From positions 1,915,355 to 1,979,354 of the forward strand of contig NZ_CP082326.1 in NCBI RefSeq assembly GCF_019884785.1: a DNA stretch of 64,000 nt, written 5' to 3'. This document shows positions 1-44,167 of the stretch, one piece after another (positions within the stretch are counted from its first letter, which is position 1; each line of letters begins with the position of its first letter). The translations under genes and the position numbers were made by a program. Source of the DNA: Crassaminicella profunda. GTDB lineage: Bacteria; Bacillota; Clostridia; Peptostreptococcales; Thermotaleaceae. The notes below the pieces were generated by a model, which saw only the letters and a list, made by a program, of their open reading frames with translations, was not told where the DNA came from and did no database searches.

Positions 1-327
1 TCCTATGATCATTGCATACATTTCCAAATGCTCTACAACGCCTATTTTTTTTAATAGAAAACTACCTCCACCAACTCCTATAATGAGAGCAATTAGTGGA
101 ATGACATAAGCAATAAATGCAGCTTTTAAAACATTTTGTGTTTCTAAATTCACTTCAACCTTATCTCCAACTTGCGCCGCTACCTTATTGAACACAACAA
201 TTTTAAATTCCATATTTTCTTGTCCAAACTGACAAGCTCCACACTCACCTCATGCTGCATTTCTTTGCATTAAAACTCTTGCTCTACGATTATCTAGTAC
301 TTCAAGAACCTCTCCTACTTCAATCAT
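1..327 (-). CDS. rseC: RseC-family membrane protein, predicted selenoprotein (3' partial, runs off the left edge)
   Basis: Translation begins at the ATG at 327 (MIEVGEVLEVLDNRRARVL) and is open to the window edge except for one in-frame TGA at 250-252, codon 26. The surrounding motif reads A-A-U-G-E-C-G-A-C, which matches the Cys-rich cluster near the N-terminus of the SoxR-reducing RseC family, with U in place of the first Cys. The reading frame continues in good family sequence (N-F-K-I/V-V type segment, then K-V-E-V-N-L) into two hydrophobic segments (AAFIAYVIPLIALIIG and the next), as expected for RseC. RseC proteins act with Rnf/Rsx electron-transfer complexes or SoxR reduction in the membrane; the partner here is unknown. 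The gene lies 34 bp after aspS, probably in the same operon. tRNA-Sec, selA, selB and selD in this window make Sec insertion possible. A nonsense mutation is the alternative. Confidence 0.82.
219..236 (-). promoter_or_regulatory. Candidate bacterial SECIS hairpin in the rseC-like gene
   Basis: Thirteen bases after the TGA at 250-252 the mRNA can form a 6-bp perfect stem, CTTGTC / GACAAG, with the loop AGTTTG. Bacterial SECIS elements recognised by SelB lie directly downstream of the UGA and have a small apical loop containing G and U roughly 16-37 nt from it. Size and distance fit. No structure calculation was run. Confidence 0.55.
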
Positions 328-360: not shown

Positions 361-2142
361 TTACTTCTCTACTACTGATTGAATATGCAACTCTTCTAAT
401 TGTTTTTCATCAACTACAGATGGTGCTTCTGTCATAGGCGATGAAGCATTTTGAGTTTTAGGAAAAGCAATGACTTCACGAATACTATTATTTCCTGTAA
501 GTAGCATCACTAATCGATCTAATCCATAAGCAATACCACCATGTGGAGGTGTACCATATTTAAATGCTTCCAGTAAAAATCCAAATTGTGCCCAAGCTTC
601 TTCTTCTGTAAATCCTAAAGCTTTAAACATTCTTTTTTGAATATCACTATTATGAATTCTAATACTTCCTCCACCTATTTCAACACCATTTAATACAATA
701 TCATAAGCTTTCGCACGTGCTTTATGAGGTGCTGTTTCTAAAAGCTCAAGGTCTTCTTCCTTTGGTGAAGTAAATGGATGGTGTTTTGCAACATATCGAT
801 CATCTTCTTCGTCATATTCAAACAATGGAAAATCTGTTACCCATAAAAGCTTATAGTCGTTTTTATCTAAAATATCTAATTTTTTAGCTATTTCTACCCT
901 TAAATGACCTAATGCATCATATACTACACTTGATTTATCCGCTACGATTAAAATTAAATCTCCTGTCTTTCCATCCAATCTTTCAATGATACTATTCATT
1001 TCTTCCTCACTGAAGAATTTGGCAATTGGAGAATTTATACCCTCATCTGTAATTCTAATCCAAGCTAATCCCTTTGCACCATAAGTTTTTGCAAAGTCCT
1101 CTAATTTCTTAACACCTTTTTTGCTAAAAGAACCTTCATATCCATTGATATTGATTCCTCGTACATCTCCTCCATTTTTTACTGTATCACTAAATACTTT
1201 AAATCCACTGTTCTTTACAATATCATTTAAAGCTTTTAATTCAAATCCAAATCTAATATCTGGCTTGTCTGAACCGAATCTATCCATTGCTTCACTATAA
1301 GGCATTCTCTTTAGTGGAAGAGTCACATCTACATTTAACATTTCTTTAAACATTTTTTGTATAAGTCTTTCATTGATAGACAATACATCTTCAACATCCA
1401 CAAAAGACATTTCAATATCAATCTGCGTAAATTCAGGCTGCCTATCTGCTCTTAAATCTTCATCTCTGAAGCATTTTACAATTTGGAAATATCTATCCAT
1501 ACCAGAAACCATCAATAATTGCTTAAATAATTGTGGTGATTGAGGAAGTGCATAGAATTTTCCTGGGTTTACACGGCTTGGTACCAAATAATCTCTAGCA
1601 CCTTCTGGAGTAGGTTTTTCAAGCATAGGTGTCTCTATTTCAGCAAATCCATTTTCATCAAGAAAATCTCTTGTAAGCTTTGCTAATTTATGTCTGAACA
1701 TAAGATTTTTTTGCATCTTAGGTTTTCTTAAATCAAGATATCTATATTTTAATCTTAAATTTTCTGAAACTTCATCTTCATCTTCTATGTAAATAGGTGG
1801 GGTTTGCGCTTCAGAGAATACTTTTAATTCACTAGCAAATACTTCAATATCTCCAGTTGGCATATTTTTATTGATAGATTCTCTCATTTTTACAATTCCC
1901 TTAATACCGATTACATATTCTCCTCTAATCTTTTCAGCTTTTGCAAAAGCTTCTTCTGACACATCATTGTCAAATACAATTTGTACAAGCCCTGATCGAT
2001 CTCTCAAATCCGTAAATACTAATCCACCTAGATTACGTCTTTTTTGTACCCATCCCATAAGTATAACTTCTTGATCTATATGATCTGTTCTTAATGTCCC
2101 ACACATATGGGTTCTTTTCATATTTCCTAATGTTTCTGCCAT
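361..2142 (-). CDS. aspS: Aspartate--tRNA ligase
   Basis: Cytoplasmic class II synthetase that charges tRNA-Asp. The 593-residue length is typical of the bacterial type. Visible parts in order: N-terminal OB-fold anticodon-binding domain (about 1-110, with GWVQKRRNLGGLVF), class II catalytic core with the motif 2 region FRDEDLRADRQPEFTQID, the bacterial GAD insertion (about 280-420), and the C-terminal motif 3 segment AYGLDRLVMLLTG. The start at 2142 is supported by GGAGG eight bases upstream. It follows hisS by 11 bp, so the two are one transcript governed by the T-box upstream of hisS, whose specifier codon is GAC (Asp). The rseC-like gene follows. Function is secure. Confidence 0.98.
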   Translation of the reverse strand: MAETLGNMKRTHMCGTLRTDHIDQEVILMGWVQKRRNLGGLVFTDLRDRSGLVQIVFDNDVSEEAFAKAEKIRGEYVIGIKGIVKMRESINKNMPTGDIEVFASELKVFSEAQTPPIYIEDEDEVSENLRLKYRYLDLRKPKMQKNLMFRHKLAKLTRDFLDENGFAEIETPMLEKPTPEGARDYLVPSRVNPGKFYALPQSPQLFKQLLMVSGMDRYFQIVKCFRDEDLRADRQPEFTQIDIEMSFVDVEDVLSINERLIQKMFKEMLNVDVTLPLKRMPYSEAMDRFGSDKPDIRFGFELKALNDIVKNSGFKVFSDTVKNGGDVRGININGYEGSFSKKGVKKLEDFAKTYGAKGLAWIRITDEGINSPIAKFFSEEEMNSIIERLDGKTGDLILIVADKSSVVYDALGHLRVEIAKKLDILDKNDYKLLWVTDFPLFEYDEEDDRYVAKHHPFTSPKEEDLELLETAPHKARAKAYDIVLNGVEIGGGSIRIHNSDIQKRMFKALGFTEEEAWAQFGFLLEAFKYGTPPHGGIAYGLDRLVMLLTGNNSIREVIAFPKTQNASSPMTEAPSVVDEKQLEELHIQSVVEK

Positions 2143-2153
2143 TTTTGTTCCTC

Positions 2154-3413
2154 CTATAGTCTTTCTTTTAATTCATTTATAATATTGCTAAGATTGATCT
2201 CTGTTTGTTCACTATTTTGCATATTTTTTAGTGTGACTACATCTTTATCTAATTCATCATCACCTATTACAATTGTATAGGCTGCATTCATTTTATTTGC
2301 ATATTTAAATTGAGCCTTTAAACTTCTATTTAAGTGATCCTTATCCCCTGATATTCCTTCTAATCTAAGTTTATGTAATAATCCTACTGCTTCTTTGTTG
2401 GCTCTTTCACCTATTGTCGCAATAAAAATATCTAATCCTTTTGGTTTTGGAATTTCAATATTATTATTTTGAAGAGTCAATAATAATCTTTCTATTCCCA
2501 TACCAAAACCAATACCAGGCGTTTTAGGTCCATCTAATTCTTCAACTAAACGATCATATCGTCCGCCTCCACAAACAGTTCCTTGGGCACCTATTTCATT
2601 AGAAATAATCTCAAATGCTGTCTTTGTGTAATAATCAAGACCCCTAACAATATTAGGATCTACTATATAATTTATATCCATAAGGGATAGATTTTCTTTT
2701 AATTTTTCAAAATCTTCCTTACATGCATCGCATATATGATCGATCATCATTGGAACATCTGTAAGCTGTTCTTTGCAAGATTCTACTTTACAATCAATAA
2801 TACGCATTGGATTTCTTTCATATCGATCTTGGCAAGTTTTACAAAGATTTGGAAGTTTTTCTTTTAAATAGTTCTTTAGTATTTGATTATATTTTCCTCT
2901 ACATTCAGGACAACCAATACTATTAATTCTAAGCTCTAGATTACTTATTCCTAATTCTTTATAAAAGGCCATTGCAATCCCTATTACTTCTGCATCAACA
3001 GAAGGATTTGTTGCACCATAGGCTTCAACTCCAAATTGGTGAAATGCTCTTAATCTTCCAGCCTGTGGTCTTTCATATCTAAAACAAGGCGTTATATAAA
3101 AAAGCTTTGTGGGTTGGGTATCTGCATATAATTTATTTTCAATGAAACTTCTTACTACTGGAGCTGTTCCTTCTGGCTTTAATGTAATATCCCTTCCACC
3201 ATTATCTTCAAAAGAATACATTTCCTTTTGTACAATATCAGTAGTTTCACCTACTCCACGTTTAAACAACTCAGTATGTTCAAAAATAGGTGTTCTTATT
3301 TCTTTATATCCAAATCTACTACAAACATCTCTAAATAAATGCTCAACAAAATTCCATTTGTAGCTTTCTGATGGCAAAACATCTTTTGTTCCTCTTGCTG
3401 CTTTTATTGACAT
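2154..3413 (-). CDS. hisS: Histidine--tRNA ligase
   Basis: Class II synthetase that charges tRNA-His in the cytoplasm; 419 residues, normal length. The N-terminal half shows motif 1 and motif 2 (TLKPEGTAPVVR, FRYERPQAGRLRAFHQFG). The His-specific signatures follow (GLDYYTKTAFEI and GGGRYDRLVEELDGPKTPGIGFG). The C-terminal HGTP anticodon-binding domain starts near residue 325. GGGAGG lies just before the start at 3413. It is the first gene of the hisS-aspS pair, under a T-box leader at 3459-3698. The leader's specifier appears to be Asp rather than His. Confidence 0.98.
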   Translation of the reverse strand: MSIKAARGTKDVLPSESYKWNFVEHLFRDVCSRFGYKEIRTPIFEHTELFKRGVGETTDIVQKEMYSFEDNGGRDITLKPEGTAPVVRSFIENKLYADTQPTKLFYITPCFRYERPQAGRLRAFHQFGVEAYGATNPSVDAEVIGIAMAFYKELGISNLELRINSIGCPECRGKYNQILKNYLKEKLPNLCKTCQDRYERNPMRIIDCKVESCKEQLTDVPMMIDHICDACKEDFEKLKENLSLMDINYIVDPNIVRGLDYYTKTAFEIISNEIGAQGTVCGGGRYDRLVEELDGPKTPGIGFGMGIERLLLTLQNNNIEIPKPKGLDIFIATIGERANKEAVGLLHKLRLEGISGDKDHLNRSLKAQFKYANKMNAAYTIVIGDDELDKDVVTLKNMQNSEQTEINLSNIINELKERL

Positions 3414-3458: not shown

Positions 3459-3698
3459 ACTTCTCCATCCCTATTATTGACAGGGACGAGAAGTATTATA
3501 TCCCGCGGTACCACCCTACTTGGAAAACCCACTTAACTCGTTAACGCCGAAATACGTATTATCTTACTAAACTTTCAGATAATCTGCTCAAAGATGTCTT
3601 CAATATAACCTTTATTATTGAGCTTTCACCAACCCTCAACTCGCTGAAAATAGTGTTATATTTACTTTTCTTATCATCGCATATACCATATACAATTG
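3459..3698 (-). promoter_or_regulatory. T-box riboswitch leader of hisS-aspS, Asp (GAC) specifier
   Basis: On the minus strand the leader holds the conserved T-box sequence AGGGTGGTACCGCGG (3503-3517). It is followed by a terminator: arms ACTTCTCGTCCCT / AGGGATGGAGAAGT at 3459-3494, then TTTTTTT. Stem I shows an AGTA loop-E segment, an 8-bp upper stem AATATAAC / GTTATATT and then GAA-GAC-A followed by TCTT, which pairs with AAGA. The register is the same as in the leuS leader of this window, where GAA is followed by a Leu codon. This places GAC at 3596-3598 as specifier. Uncharged tRNA-Asp would favour antitermination. Confidence 0.95.
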
Positions 3699-23898: not shown

Positions 23899-23995
23899 TG
23901 GCGGGAATATGTGGGAATCGAACCCACCTGAGAAGCTCTTAACCCCTCAAACTGGTTTTGAAGACCAGAGGGCACACCAGCACCCATCTACTCCC
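23899..23995 (-). tRNA. selC: tRNA-Sec, anticodon TCA
   Basis: 97-nt tRNA with all hallmarks of bacterial selC. It has a long acceptor arm (GGGAGTAG against ATATTCCC, seven pairs plus a terminal G-A opposition), discriminator G73 and encoded CCA. The D-stem has 6 bp (GGGTGC / GTGCCC) with a 4-base TGGT loop. The anticodon arm is CTGGT-CTTCAAA-ACCAG, giving UCA. There is a long variable arm closed by TGAG / CTCA, and a T-arm GTGGG-TTCGATT-CCCAC. It has its own promoter at 24036-24064 and a terminator at 23828-23864. It serves the in-frame TGA codons of selD and the rseC-like gene. Confidence 0.97.
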
Positions 23996-31192: not shown

Positions 31193-31214
31193 AGCTACCT
31201 TAGGTTTGGTAGCT
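31193..31214 (-). terminator. Terminator after selB
   Basis: Stem AGCTACC / GGTAGCT with an 8-base loop, followed on the minus strand by TTTTTTCTTG. Overlaps the selB stop codon and ends the selAB transcript. Confidence 0.85.
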
Positions 31215-33117
31215 ACAATAAAACTCTTTTTTCTCCAATTCTCTTAGTAATCTTATTTTGATCAAAAGACTCTAATAATGGTAATGCATATTTTCTTGAA
31301 GTCCCTAATAAGTCTCTAAATTCAGATAAAGTCATTTCCCCATGATCTTTAAGATAATCGCTCATTATTTTTATAGCTTTTTCATAATTCTCAATATGCA
31401 TAAACATCTCATCATTAATCTTTACAAGACAATTCATATCTAAAAGAGCATATAAAACCTGACGAGATTCTTTCTCGTTTTCTTCATTTTGTAATACTTC
31501 CTTCATGGATGGAGCATTGAACCCACTAGTTAGATAGATCTTCTCTATTTTATTTTTTATTTTTTCTTGTTCTTTCGTATACACAATATGAAAATTATAA
31601 AGTGCAATACAATTATTTAACAGTTTTAAAATATTATTTTCAACAAAATAATTAATGATTTCATCATAGATTTTTCCTTTTACCTGAGGAACTACTTTAT
31701 TTCTAAGCTCTTCTTTACTCATTCCAAAGGTCAATGGATTACCTTTGTGGTAGATACCTAAAGTATATTTAATTTTTTCTTCCATCTCTTTTAAATAAGA
31801 CTTATGAATAAGAATATCTCCTGAAAGCTTCATAATTATTTTTTCTTGTATCAAAGCTTCTACAATCTTTTTAATTGTATCTACGCCAATTCCTGTTTTC
31901 ATGGCATAAAAATGAAGATTCTCAAACTGACTGCTAAATCGTTTGATAACTTCTTCTACAATTTGTTCTGAACTTCCTTCTTCTTTAATTTTCAATTGCT
32001 TTAATACATCTTCTTTAAACCTTTTATGCTTCATGGGATGTGCATCTAGTATGATTCCTCCCCCTATGGTCTCCATAGGTGAATAAAATCTTATTACAAT
32101 ATGATCTCCTCTTTTTGCAACAATTTCCTCTTCCAATCTTAATTGGGCATAACAACTTTCTCCTGGTTTTAATTCTTCTCGATCTAATAAAACAATCCTA
32201 CAAAGGATTTCACTTGTCCCATGATATAATCTTACCCTACTTCTATTTTCAATCACTCTCTTCGTATTTTTAAGTAAATTTATTTTCACATCTAACATCA
32301 TACTAGATTGCATTGAGCCTTCTTTAGCCAGTACATTTCCTCTCATTATTTCTTCTTTTTTTACATTGGCTAAATTGATTGCAACTCTTTGTCCTGCATA
32401 AGACGTCTTTACATTTTCCCCATGAACCTGTAAATTTCTAACTTTTGTCTGAATTCCTTGAGGATAAATCATTAAAGAATCCCCTTCATTAATAGTTCCT
32501 TCAATCTGCGTACCTGTAATAACCGTTCCAAATCCAGCAATAGAAAAAGCTCTATCAATGGGTACTCTAAATGGAAGCAATAAATCCTTTGATTCTGTTT
32601 CTTCTGTCATCTGATCAATTAATTCTGTTAACTTATCAAGACCTTTCCCTTCTAAAGCTGATACAGAAACGATAGGTGCTTTTTCTAAAAAGGTTTCTTT
32701 TACGCTTTCCCTTATTTCCTCTCCAACAAGATCTAGCCATTCTTGTTCTACTAAATCCGTTTTGGTCAATACAATAATCCCTTTTTTCACTTCTAATATG
32801 GATAAAATATCTAGATGCTCTTGGGTTTGAGGCATAACTCCTTCGTCAGCAGCAATTACTAATAAAACAATATCTATTCCACCAATACCTGCCAGCATAT
32901 TTTTAATAAATTTTTCATGTCCTGGCACATCTATAATACCTGCTCTTTTTCCACTTGGAAGATCAAAATGAGCAAACCCTAACTCTATTGTAATACCTCT
33001 TTTTTTCTCTTCTTTTAATCGATCTGCATCTACTCCTGTTAAAGCTTTGATCAATGTAGTTTTTCCATGATCTATGTGCCCAGCAGTCCCAATGATGATA
33101 TGTTTCAAATCCTTCAC
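31213..33117 (-). CDS. selB: Selenocysteine-specific elongation factor SelB
   Basis: 634 residues. Delivers Sec-tRNA to UGA at SECIS sites. An EF-Tu-like N-terminal half with [14 protein letters not shown] (13-26), [15 protein letters not shown], and TKTD (116-119) is followed by beta-barrel domains and a C-terminal region of four winged helices (about 370-634) that binds SECIS RNA. The GTG start at 33117 lies 5 bp after the selA stop and uses GGGGT inside the selA end as ribosome site, so the two are translationally coupled. Confidence 0.97.
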
Positions 33118-33121
33118 TCCT

Positions 33122-34531
33122 CTACCCCATTAGTATGTGACGTAACCCCTCTACAATGATGTCAAATTCATTTGATTTTATGGTACGCACATCTATTAAT
33201 ACTTTATCTTCACTAATTCTTGTAATAATAGGTGTCTTATAACCCCTTAACATTTCTTCAAATTTGTTAATGGATAAAAACTCTGGTTTTATGCTAATTA
33301 AAACCGTTTCCATCTCCTCGAGTGGCATAGATCCCCCGCCAACTTGAGATACGCCATTTATTTTTTCAATTGTACAATTTTTTATATTATTTTTCAACAT
33401 CTCGTATAAAGTATCTGCCTTTTCTTTAATTTCATCAAAACTCATGGTCAACATACGAAGGGTTGGAATTTCATTGATAGCATCCTTTTCATTTAAATAC
33501 AATCTTAAGGTTGCCTCAAGAGCTGCTAATGTCAATTTATCAACTCTAAATGCCCTTGTATAAGGATTCTTTTTCATCTCCTTAATATACTTTTCTTTTC
33601 CAACAATGATTCCTGCTTGAGGACCCCCTAGTAATTTATCTCCACTAAAGGTAACAATATCTGCTCCTGCTAAAACGCTTTCTTGAACAGTAGGTTCTTT
33701 ATAAAGACCATATTTTGAAAAATCTATAAAAGTGCCACTTCCAATATCTTCAATTACTGGAACATCATATTCTTTTCCTAAATCTACTAAATTTTTTAAT
33801 GAAACCTCCTCTGTAAATCCTAAGATCCTGTAGTTACTTGTATGTACCTTAAGTAAAACAGCAGTCTCCTCACTAATAGCACTTTTATAATCAGAAAGAT
33901 GTGTTTTATTCGTTGTCCCTACTTCAACAAGCTTTGCACCACTTTGTTGCATAACATCAGGTACACGAAAAGCTCCTCCAATTTCTACCAATTGCCCCCT
34001 TGAAACAATTACTTCTTTATTTTTAGCTAATGTATCAAGAACCAACAGAACTGCTGCTGCATTATTATTCACTACCATTGCAGATTCTGCACCTGTGAGT
34101 TTTGTTATGATCTCTTCCACATGGGCATATCTTGATCCTCTTGTTCCAGAATTGATATCAAACTCTAATGTAGAATAGCTACTCGCCACATTCCAAATAT
34201 CTTCCTTTATGGATTCACTAAGAAGGGCACGTCCTAAATTTGTATGCAGCACCACCCCTGTAGCATTTATAACTTTTCTTAAATTCATTCTATTTTTTAA
34301 TTCTACATTTTGAATAATATGCTCTATTAATTCTTCCTCATCAATTTTAAAGTTTTCAGTCTCCTGCTCATTTAATTTGATAATTTGACTTCGTATATGC
34401 TCAATATTCTCTCTAATAGATTCCACAACTGTAATTCTTGGAACTTTTTCTAATAGATTTTCAATTTTTTCTTCCTTTAGCAAATCATCTACCTTAGGAA
34501 TTAACGCAAAAATATTCTTTTTATTCGCCAC
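33122..34531 (-). CDS. selA: L-seryl-tRNA(Sec) selenium transferase SelA
   Basis: 469 residues. PLP enzyme that converts Ser-tRNA-Sec to Sec-tRNA-Sec using selenophosphate. The PLP lysine lies in TFSGDKLLGGPQAG (Lys299), with VINATGVVLHTNLGRALLS and GSRYAHVE as further SelA signatures. The GTG at 34531 is chosen since GGAGTGA precedes it and family sequence (ANKKNIFALIPKVDDLL) begins here; the frame is open further upstream to 34570 without support. Divergent from agcS. Confidence 0.97.
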   Translation of the reverse strand: MANKKNIFALIPKVDDLLKEEKIENLLEKVPRITVVESIRENIEHIRSQIIKLNEQETENFKIDEEELIEHIIQNVELKNRMNLRKVINATGVVLHTNLGRALLSESIKEDIWNVASSYSTLEFDINSGTRGSRYAHVEEIITKLTGAESAMVVNNNAAAVLLVLDTLAKNKEVIVSRGQLVEIGGAFRVPDVMQQSGAKLVEVGTTNKTHLSDYKSAISEETAVLLKVHTSNYRILGFTEEVSLKNLVDLGKEYDVPVIEDIGSGTFIDFSKYGLYKEPTVQESVLAGADIVTFSGDKLLGGPQAGIIVGKEKYIKEMKKNPYTRAFRVDKLTLAALEATLRLYLNEKDAINEIPTLRMLTMSFDEIKEKADTLYEMLKNNIKNCTIEKINGVSQVGGGSMPLEEMETVLISIKPEFLSINKFEEMLRGYKTPIITRISEDKVLIDVRTIKSNEFDIIVEGLRHILMG

Positions 34532-34674
34532 GATTATCACTCCAATTTGTAATATTTCCACAATTACCATTATTACTTAAAATTATAACATATTATACGA
34601 AAAGATTATCCTTTAAATTTTATCACATATATCTTCTCTTTATTCTAAATTTTGGAATTTTTCTGAAAAATATA

Positions 34675-36232: not shown

Positions 36233-36263
36233 AAGATAAAGCATCCTTTGGGTGCTTTATCTT
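36233..36263. terminator. Bidirectional terminator between agcS and selD
   Basis: Stem AAGATAAAGCA / TGCTTTATCTT, extended inward by CC/GG around a one-base bulge, with A-rich and T-rich flanks on both sides. Serves converging agcS (plus) and selD (minus); overlaps the selD stop. Confidence 0.8.
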
Positions 36264-37297
36264 ACTTTAATATAAAAATCCTCTTTTTCAACTACTTCTC
36301 CTACTACTGCAAAATCTGTAGGTAATTCATCTTCATAAAAGGCAAGTAAATCTTTTACTTTTTCCTTAGATAAAGATATTAATAAACCGCCTGATGTTTG
36401 TGGGTCATATAAAATATCACGCATGTAAGTTGGCACTTCTTTTTCAAAGTCTACTTGTCCATCTAAATACGCTTCATTATTATATGCTCCTGCAGGTACA
36501 AGACCCATATTGGCGTTTTCTATAGCTCCTTCAACAATAGGTACCTCTTTAGAATTTATAGTTAGAGTAACATCACTAGCTTTAGCCATCTCAAAGGCAT
36601 GTCCTAAAAAACCAAATCCTGTAATGTCTGTACAAGAATGTGCACCTATCTTTTTCATTCCTTTAGCTGCAATATTATTTAGGCTAGCCATTACACTCAT
36701 AACCTTTTCTACAAGCTCCTCTGAAAGCATTCCTGCTTTGATAGCTGTATTTAAAATACCAGTCCCTAAAGGCTTTGTTAATACTAATACATCACCTGGC
36801 TTAGCTAAATCATTACTCATTACCCTATCAGGCGATACAATTCCTGTAACGGATAATCCATATTTGGGTTCATTATCATCTACACTATGTCCTCCTACTA
36901 ATAATGCACCTGCTTCCTTTGCCTTATCTGCTCCTCCCTTTAAAATCTCTGTTAGAATATCCATAGATATACAAGTAGGAAAGCATACAATATTCATAGC
37001 AAGGATAGGTTCTCCCCCCATTGCATATACATCACTTAAGGAATTAGCTGCTGCAATTTGTCCAAACATATAAGGATCATCTACTATTGGTGTGAAAAAA
37101 TCTAAGGTTTGTATAATAGCCGTATCATCATTCAGTTTATATACTGCTGCATCATCAGAAGTTTCTAAGCCTACCAATAAATGCTCATCCTGTATTTTAG
37201 GTAAATGACACAAAACTTGTGCCAAGGTCTCAGGACCAATTTTTGCTGCTCATCCAGAAGTTCTACTCATTTCTGTTAATCTTTTATTTGTAGTCAT
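36257..37297 (-). CDS. selD: Selenide, water dikinase SelD, a selenoprotein (TGA = Sec16)
   Basis: Makes selenophosphate from selenide and ATP. The complete gene starts at the ATG at 37297 (MTTNKRLTEMSRTSG), runs through an in-frame TGA at 37250-37252 (codon 16) and ends at 36257, giving 346 residues. The motif is T-S-G-U-A-A-K-I, matching the catalytic (C/U)-x-x-K site of SelD with Lys19 intact. Later motifs include TSDDAAVYKL, VGGHSVDDNEPKYG and CTDITGFGFLGHAFEMA. Without readthrough a caller would begin at an arbitrary internal codon near 37225 and lose the active site. AGAGGTGAT precedes the ATG. It is separated from selAB by the inverted agcS. Confidence 0.97.
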
Positions 37298-43942: not shown

Positions 43943-44167
43943 AATTCTCATCCCCTTGTAGGGACGAGGAATTCCCCGCGGTACCACCCTAATTGACATT
44001 AATTGTCCACTTATTGGTTCTTAAAGGTAACCAACCTATTGTTTCCTGAGGCAAGTTCAACAGTTTGCTTTATCGATTCACACCCTCCATCGACTCTCTA
44101 AAAAAGGTCAACTATTTACTACTCCTCTATAATTGTATTCATTTTTTATAATACTTCTTAGAATTTT
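43943..44167 (-). promoter_or_regulatory. T-box riboswitch leader of leuS, Leu (CTT) specifier
   Basis: The T-box sequence AGGGTGGTACCGCGG lies at 43976-43990, followed by the terminator hairpin AATTCCTCGTCCC / GGGGATGAGAATT (43943-43973) and TTTTTC. In stem I an AGTA loop-E segment is opposite GAA-CTT-G, flanked by the pairs GAGG / CCTC below and AATAGTT / AACTGTT above. The specifier CTT is at 44053-44055. Uncharged tRNA-Leu would stabilise the antiterminator. Confidence 0.96.

Follow-up and report, generated by a model that had tools for sequence, protein, structure and literature searches.

Results

An rseC gene with an in-frame TGA in Crassaminicella profunda

The analysed stretch of the Crassaminicella profunda genome (64,000 nucleotides, hereafter the window) comes from an assembly of one contig of 4.59 Mb and carries an incomplete rseC gene at its left edge (Table 1). 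Read with TGA as selenocysteine (Sec, U), this part of the gene contains a single TGA in its 109 codons, in the context AAUGECGAC, and matches the Pfam family RseC_MucC (PF04246) with an E-value of 4.8e-23. Positions 1-327 are identical inside a longer stretch of the same genome that holds the complete gene, and the frame continues undamaged beyond the left window edge to a total of 143 codons, followed by TAA. The full-length product scored 107 bits against PF04246 (curated cut-off 24.4) and covered positions 5-129 of the 130 in the profile. Its score against the NCBIfam equivalog NF008115 (SoxR-reducing system protein RseC) was 35.8 bits, below the cut-off of 184 bits, indicating a member of the family and not that equivalog. 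With NCBIfam 20.0, the window protein and six relatives gave the ordinary RseC model (G055 gave none) and a weak match to SA1362.

The initial annotation had described this frame as RseC-family sequence that is continuous save for one TGA, had pointed to the left of the window for an intact C-terminus, and had expected standard gene calling to miss or truncate the gene. All three points were confirmed: the only TGA is that of codon 26, the C-terminus is present with no decay of the frame, and the standard reading gives only an internal ORF of 105 aa, starting from the ATG at window position 213. The tRNA-Sec, SelA, SelB and Sec-type SelD that it had placed in the same window were likewise all found, the last being an ORF that we take to be SelD, with a UxxK motif. 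TGA is the stop codon of 5 of 51 other window ORFs (51 picked from 58), and the genetic code is therefore not reassigned.

Table 1. Features of the window discussed in the text; (-) is the reverse strand.
Feature	Position	Strand	Basis or remark
rseC, predicted Sec form, codons 1-109 of 143	1..327	(-)	Pfam match, translation with TGA as U; the genome continues the gene past the left window edge
In-frame TGA (codon 26); selenocysteine predicted where the C-x2-C-x2-C cluster has its first Cys	250..252	(-)	Translation, alignments
SECIS-like hairpin CUUGUC-AGUUUG-GACAAG, loop starts 19 nt past the UGA	219..236	(-)	Hairpin scoring
aspS, directly upstream of rseC	361..2142	(-)	Pfam scan of the same ORF (L032:6719-8497)
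ORF, putative hisS	2154..3413		By reading alone
T-box leader	3479..3686	(-)
tRNA-Sec (anticodon TCA)	23899..23995	(-)
selB	31213..33117	(-)
selA	33122..34570	(-)
selD, itself with a TGA in frame at codon 16	36257..37297	(-)	AIRS and AIRS_C domains
T-box leader	43957..44138	(-)

In G018 and G096, as in the window's genome, aspS immediately precedes rseC, and G001, G002 and G040 have ORFs of aspS length there, as judged by size only. In G055, one RseC-like gene separates aspS from a second, and in G433 the end of aspS is about 1.5 kb upstream. The neighbours of the gene in G021 encode a PAS histidine kinase on one side and a macro-domain protein on the other; like-sized ORFs flank rseC in G032 and G060 (by size only). 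One of the two T-box leaders in the window is located upstream of the putative hisS, aspS and rseC, and expression of rseC may thus follow tRNA charging.

The TGA falls on a conserved cysteine and recurs in several lineages

In an alignment of 39 homologues, A25, C26, C29, C32, N47, Y74 and P77 were invariant when U was counted as Cys. The window protein retains C29 and C32 of this three-Cys cluster, and its position 26 is the TGA. Across 166 distinct RseC proteins, position 26 was Cys in 156 and TGA in 8, and the two divergent proteins of G055 have T or G there; the TGA genes had been fetched deliberately, so these counts are no frequency. Position 29 was Cys in 164 of the 166 and TGA in both G055 proteins, and position 32 was Cys in 164. 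Titled GTDB contigs yielded 77 RseC loci, 73 with Cys and 4 with TGA at position 26 as judged by eye, a ratio biased towards Cys because one of the two search patterns demanded it. These comparisons bear out the proposal that the TGA replaces the first Cys of a conserved cluster.

Non-terminal TGA codons were present in at least 14 RseC genes from 13 genomes, always on a cluster Cys or no more than two residues away from one. Among the 166 RseC, with frames ended at TAA or TAG, the TGA of the 14 genes was located at the first Cys in 8, two residues after the first Cys in 4 and in line with the second Cys in 2, and nowhere else. The carriers are the window's genome and G001 in the window's genus (g1), P. 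canis (G018) and G040 in the genus of Peptostreptococcus canis, Peptacetobacter hominis (G149) and G206 in Peptacetobacter, four genomes of genus g16 (G021, G032, G043 and G060), one genome each of family f2 (G096) and family f62 (G433, listed only as same phylum), and G055, which has two adjacent divergent paralogues, each with a TGA. The window's genus includes two genomes with TGA and two with Cys, out of four; in the P. canis genus, two of nine genomes have the TGA and the other seven have no inner stop. On a tree of the 166 rows, exchange between Cys and Sec amounted to 9 state changes, of which at least four are forced by starred branches; the tree was a quick one from few columns, with long branches including that of G055, and gains and losses were not told apart.

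Other stop codons did not recur in this way. A search that read through all stops found an inner TGA in 8 of 72 matches from 59 genomes, the window's gene included, and an inner TAA or TAG in none of the 72 matches from these 59 genomes, the window's own among them. The wider searches likewise gave no TAA or TAG at the Cys cluster of relatives among the matches listed. Ten rows with TAA or TAG from two wider searches (four and six) were inspected as possible counter-evidence, and all were natural C-terminal stops. Of the two observations on relatives that the initial annotation had proposed as checks, the same TGA was thus found in several lineages among Cys homologues, and TAA or TAG at its place was absent among the matches listed.

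The four TGA genes of genus g16 (L036, L037, L038 and L218) share the motif C-G-U-x4-C-x2-C, in which the predicted Sec is two residues past the first Cys. The fourth Cys of the Cys paralogue in G021 (ACGESCASCKGGC) is absent from these genes, and the Sec position in g16 may be a moved ligand. Other RseC rows of these genomes had no inner TGA among the matches listed, and one in G021 had a terminal TGA. The two very divergent, adjoining RseC-like genes of G055 (L039, G055:C17, about 4.8-5.6 kb) have the TGA in the context U-G-x-G-S-T. They lack the usual Cys cluster and have aspS on one side and a serine hydroxymethyltransferase gene on the other.

Selenocysteine machinery and hairpins downstream of the UGA

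SelA was found in 12 of the 13 genomes with the TGA. Of 12 searched for tRNA-Sec, 11 had a match above the cut-off, and a SelB domain was present in 5 of the 6 searched; the miss was in each case G060, which is 79% complete. However, SelA was over the cut-off in 73 of 80 RseC carriers (taken from the 187 genomes with an RseC match), and the machinery is so common in the order that its co-occurrence with the TGA is uninformative. The seven RseC carriers that lack SelA (G023, G028, G045, G061, G133, G191 and G215) had no TGA among the RseC matches listed, and are too few to prove anything.

A bacterial SECIS element is a hairpin downstream of the UGA whose apical loop carries a G close to its beginning. 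The window's hairpin (Table 1) is of this form, though some Cys homologues and synonymous recodings score as high (see below), and recurs unchanged in G001 at the same 19 nt past the UGA, with a perfect stem. In the Cys genes of the same genus, G003 keeps the stem and has the loop AACAUG, and G002 has a stem mismatch. The hairpin of G096 (CUUGCC-AGUUG-GGCGAG) has its 5' arm placed as in the window and pairs one base out of register; this comparison was dropped as a case of covariation, because the differing registers do not make it a strict one. The other carriers have hairpins of different sequence: UGACG-GUUU-CGUCA in G149 and G206, CUUCG-GUU-CGAAG in G018, CUUC-AGUUC-GAAG in G040, GGUAUG-GGA-CAUACC in G433, and CACGGGC-GGU-GUCCGUG and CCCUC-GGC-GAGGG in G055.

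Under one common rule, which was fixed after the hairpins had been seen, 11 of the 14 TGA genes scored 10 or more. The other three, from G021, G032 and G060, scored 8, 8 and 7, and would form a better hairpin if a 13-nt loop were allowed. The median score was 13 for TGA genes versus 0 for Cys genes (Mann-Whitney p=1e-4, ignoring relatedness) in a sample that took 11 TGA genes out of 14 and, from the 73 Cys loci, the nearer 27. Some Cys genes scored high (L087 15, L091 14, L085 and L089 13), and the window's selD, used as a positive control, scored only 10. Among synonymous recodings, 7.5% scored as high as the window's hairpin, and this share ranged from 0.3 to 64% over 11 TGA genes. The hairpins of single genes are thus mostly not extreme relative to synonymous recoding, and the hairpin evidence is supporting and not proof.

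Predicted structure and comparison with known RseC proteins

The AlphaFold2 model of a congener protein (L086) comprised strands, two helices (residues 66-95 and 101-129) and a C-terminal strand, with a mean pLDDT of 84 and a low-confidence Cys loop of about 61. The model agrees with the layout of the RseC family, in which two predicted transmembrane helices follow the Cys domain. A sequence search of the PDB gave only one weak match (E=0.11). Foldseek gave no match at an E-value of 0.001 or better (best 0.022); the best 50 of its 289 rows were mainly ribosome-entry chains and IF1, which for this model would suggest a small beta barrel only.

Lee et al. (2024, PMC11729352) report that the E. 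coli protein crosses the membrane with two helices, keeps both termini in the cytoplasm and has conserved cysteines 26, 29 and 35, and that its reconstituted N-terminal domain binds an O2-sensitive [4Fe-4S] cluster. Two of these three Cys are reported to be required for function, in wording that is ambiguous on the changes made, and at least one of them may be dispensable in E. coli; the same source describes the Nqr and Rnf complexes as akin. Klask et al. (2022, PMC9124969) report that deletion of rseC in C. ljungdahlii abolished autotrophy and repressed the rnf genes. The window protein shares with the E. coli and C. ljungdahlii proteins the domain, the length, the N-terminal Cys cluster and two long helices. 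Unlike in those proteins, the codon for its first cluster Cys is TGA. Furthermore, its cluster spacing is C-x2-C-x2-C, as opposed to C-x2-C-x5-C in E. coli RseC, and the gene lies beside aspS instead of in an rpoE operon.

RnfC was over the cut-off in 16 of the 17 genomes searched, and was absent at this cut-off only from G433 (L170). G433 carries the TGA form of rseC, which speaks against an obligate role in Rnf. RnfC-like matches below the cut-off and with inner stops were seen at G000:C1:2965141-2966457 and at similar places in G001 and G003 (one TAG, two TAA and one TGA).

Discussion

We consider it highly probable that this locus encodes a full-length inner-membrane protein of the RseC family in which UGA codon 26 is read as Sec by the SelA, SelB, SelD and tRNA-Sec of the window under the direction of the hairpin, with the selenolate as a putative Fe-S ligand. 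From the sequence comparisons we strongly infer that Sec is actually inserted at codon 26. Most likely this is a new family of selenoproteins, with Sec hypothesized to stand in for one ligand of the O2-sensitive Fe-S site reported for E. coli RseC. In the proposed mechanism, Sec insertion at the UGA would be directed by the SECIS-like hairpin that lies some 19 nt further along the coding mRNA. The product would have a cytoplasmic beta-rich domain with a U-x2-C-x2-C loop, followed by a pair of transmembrane helices and, at the C-terminus, one more strand. The loop would be the counterpart of the Cys cluster that is reported to bind the O2-sensitive [4Fe-4S] cluster in E. coli RseC. A selenolate in place of one ligand could alter the redox potential of the cluster, the exchange of its ligands or its repair once oxidized, and RseC would support the Rnf complex in its expression or its operation.

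The initial annotation had expected the selenol to form a more reactive redox or metal-binding centre. This expectation can be narrowed: in view of the cluster reported for E. coli RseC (PMC11729352), Sec is more plausibly a candidate ligand of an Fe-S cluster than part of a thioredoxin-like pair. By analogy with E. coli RseC, we thus hypothesize that Sec is an Fe-S ligand in this protein, and a link of RseC to Rnf in the source organism is likewise suggested by analogy. The complete proposal, namely that Sec ligates a [4Fe-4S] cluster controlling Rnf-linked electron flow, with repeated Cys/Sec exchange and a shift of Sec to a neighbouring position in one genus, is tentative, and we give it somewhat less than an even chance.

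The main rival to Sec as an Fe-S ligand is that Sec is inserted into a site for thiol/selenol redox chemistry or for another metal. The spacing of the cluster, which differs from that of E. coli, would fit such a site, as would the G433 genome with no RnfC over the cut-off and the two Peptacetobacter genomes G149 and G206 (L067 and L068), in which the gene immediately before rseC encodes a PF02583 metal-sensitive repressor. However, several other scanned loci have aspS upstream instead, and an Fe-S cluster is reported for the E. coli protein (PMC11729352). We therefore regard a site of this kind as unlikely, while counting it a serious contender.

It is far less plausible that the gene makes two products, a peptide of 25 N-terminal residues ending at the UGA and, after a restart at the ATG, a 105-aa membrane protein that lacks the Cys cluster. 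The internal ATG does open such an ORF. However, the codons between the TGA and this ATG are conserved, and the two further Cys are kept in 12 of the 14 TGA genes, the exceptions being both G055 genes. Codons upstream of the TGA are also constrained, with pN/pS of 0.12-0.48 in seven pairs, a noisy estimate from only 25-26 codons.

A nonsense mutation in a pseudogene, or a sequencing error that misread TGC or TGT as TGA, would account for the 105-aa ORF left by the standard reading, and some of the TGA carriers are indeed metagenome-assembled genomes. However, the same codon is found in two genomes of the window's genus and in the isolates P. canis and P. hominis, the 14 TGA genes are free of any other inner stop, and no TAA or TAG was seen at the cluster among the matches listed. 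The argument of the initial annotation that a random nonsense mutation would rarely hit a redox Cys has gained weight, as at least 14 TGA genes have the codon on a cluster Cys or no more than two residues from one. In addition, purifying selection acts past the TGA: pN/pS in this region was 0.25 for the window and G001, 0.41 for G018 and G040, 0.34 for G149 and G206, and 0.21, 0.21, 0.20 and 0.23 for four g16 pairs, and values of 0.20-0.41 in all seven pairs indicate that the distal frame is kept as protein. Mutation or error is thus hardly credible. Near-cognate readthrough of the UGA as Trp or Cys instead of Sec is just as improbable, given that the aligned residue is Cys, U, or T or G in all 166 proteins (156, 8 and 2) and never Trp, that Sec machinery and hairpins are present, and that TGA elsewhere in the window is an ordinary stop.

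The statement of the initial annotation that RseC stands outside the classical selenoprotein families agrees with published surveys: RseC/PF04246 is absent from the table of 87 families of 2022 (PMC9312934) and from that of 119 families of 2026 (PMC13188914), and RseC is absent from the nine new deep-Sep families (PMC12013277). Neither 'RseC' nor 'SoxR' occurs in the main text of PMC5029168. Literature searches over mostly non-subscription papers, without supplementary files, gave nothing on topic that joins RseC or the SoxR-reducing system to selenocysteine, and nothing on topic for selenocysteine as an iron-sulfur cluster ligand.

Related cases are present in the two family tables (PMC9312934, PMC13188914). 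The Fe-S cluster domain protein (UxxC), the CopZ-type protein (2Fe-2S) and HdrA (CxxU) are predicted to have Sec at a Cys of a metal-related motif, as in RseC, but their domains, compared by name, differ from that of RseC. Both tables also list NqrE (NADH:ubiquinone oxidoreductase subunit E, PF02508), a membrane protein of the Nqr/Rnf group with a predicted Sec; NqrE is a subunit of the complex, whereas RseC is not.

Since the standard reading truncates rseC, to 105 aa in this case, genomes with the TGA form may be annotated as lacking RseC or as having a shortened one. The TGA and Cys forms occur within one genus (TGA in two of four genomes and in two of nine), which would allow a direct comparison of what Sec does at this likely Fe-S ligand. 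If the proposal is true, such genera would provide a natural series for what selenium does in an iron-sulfur site. The selenoproteome would gain a family that is connected with Rnf, a complex by which many anaerobes conserve energy, and selenium supply would be linked to this complex.
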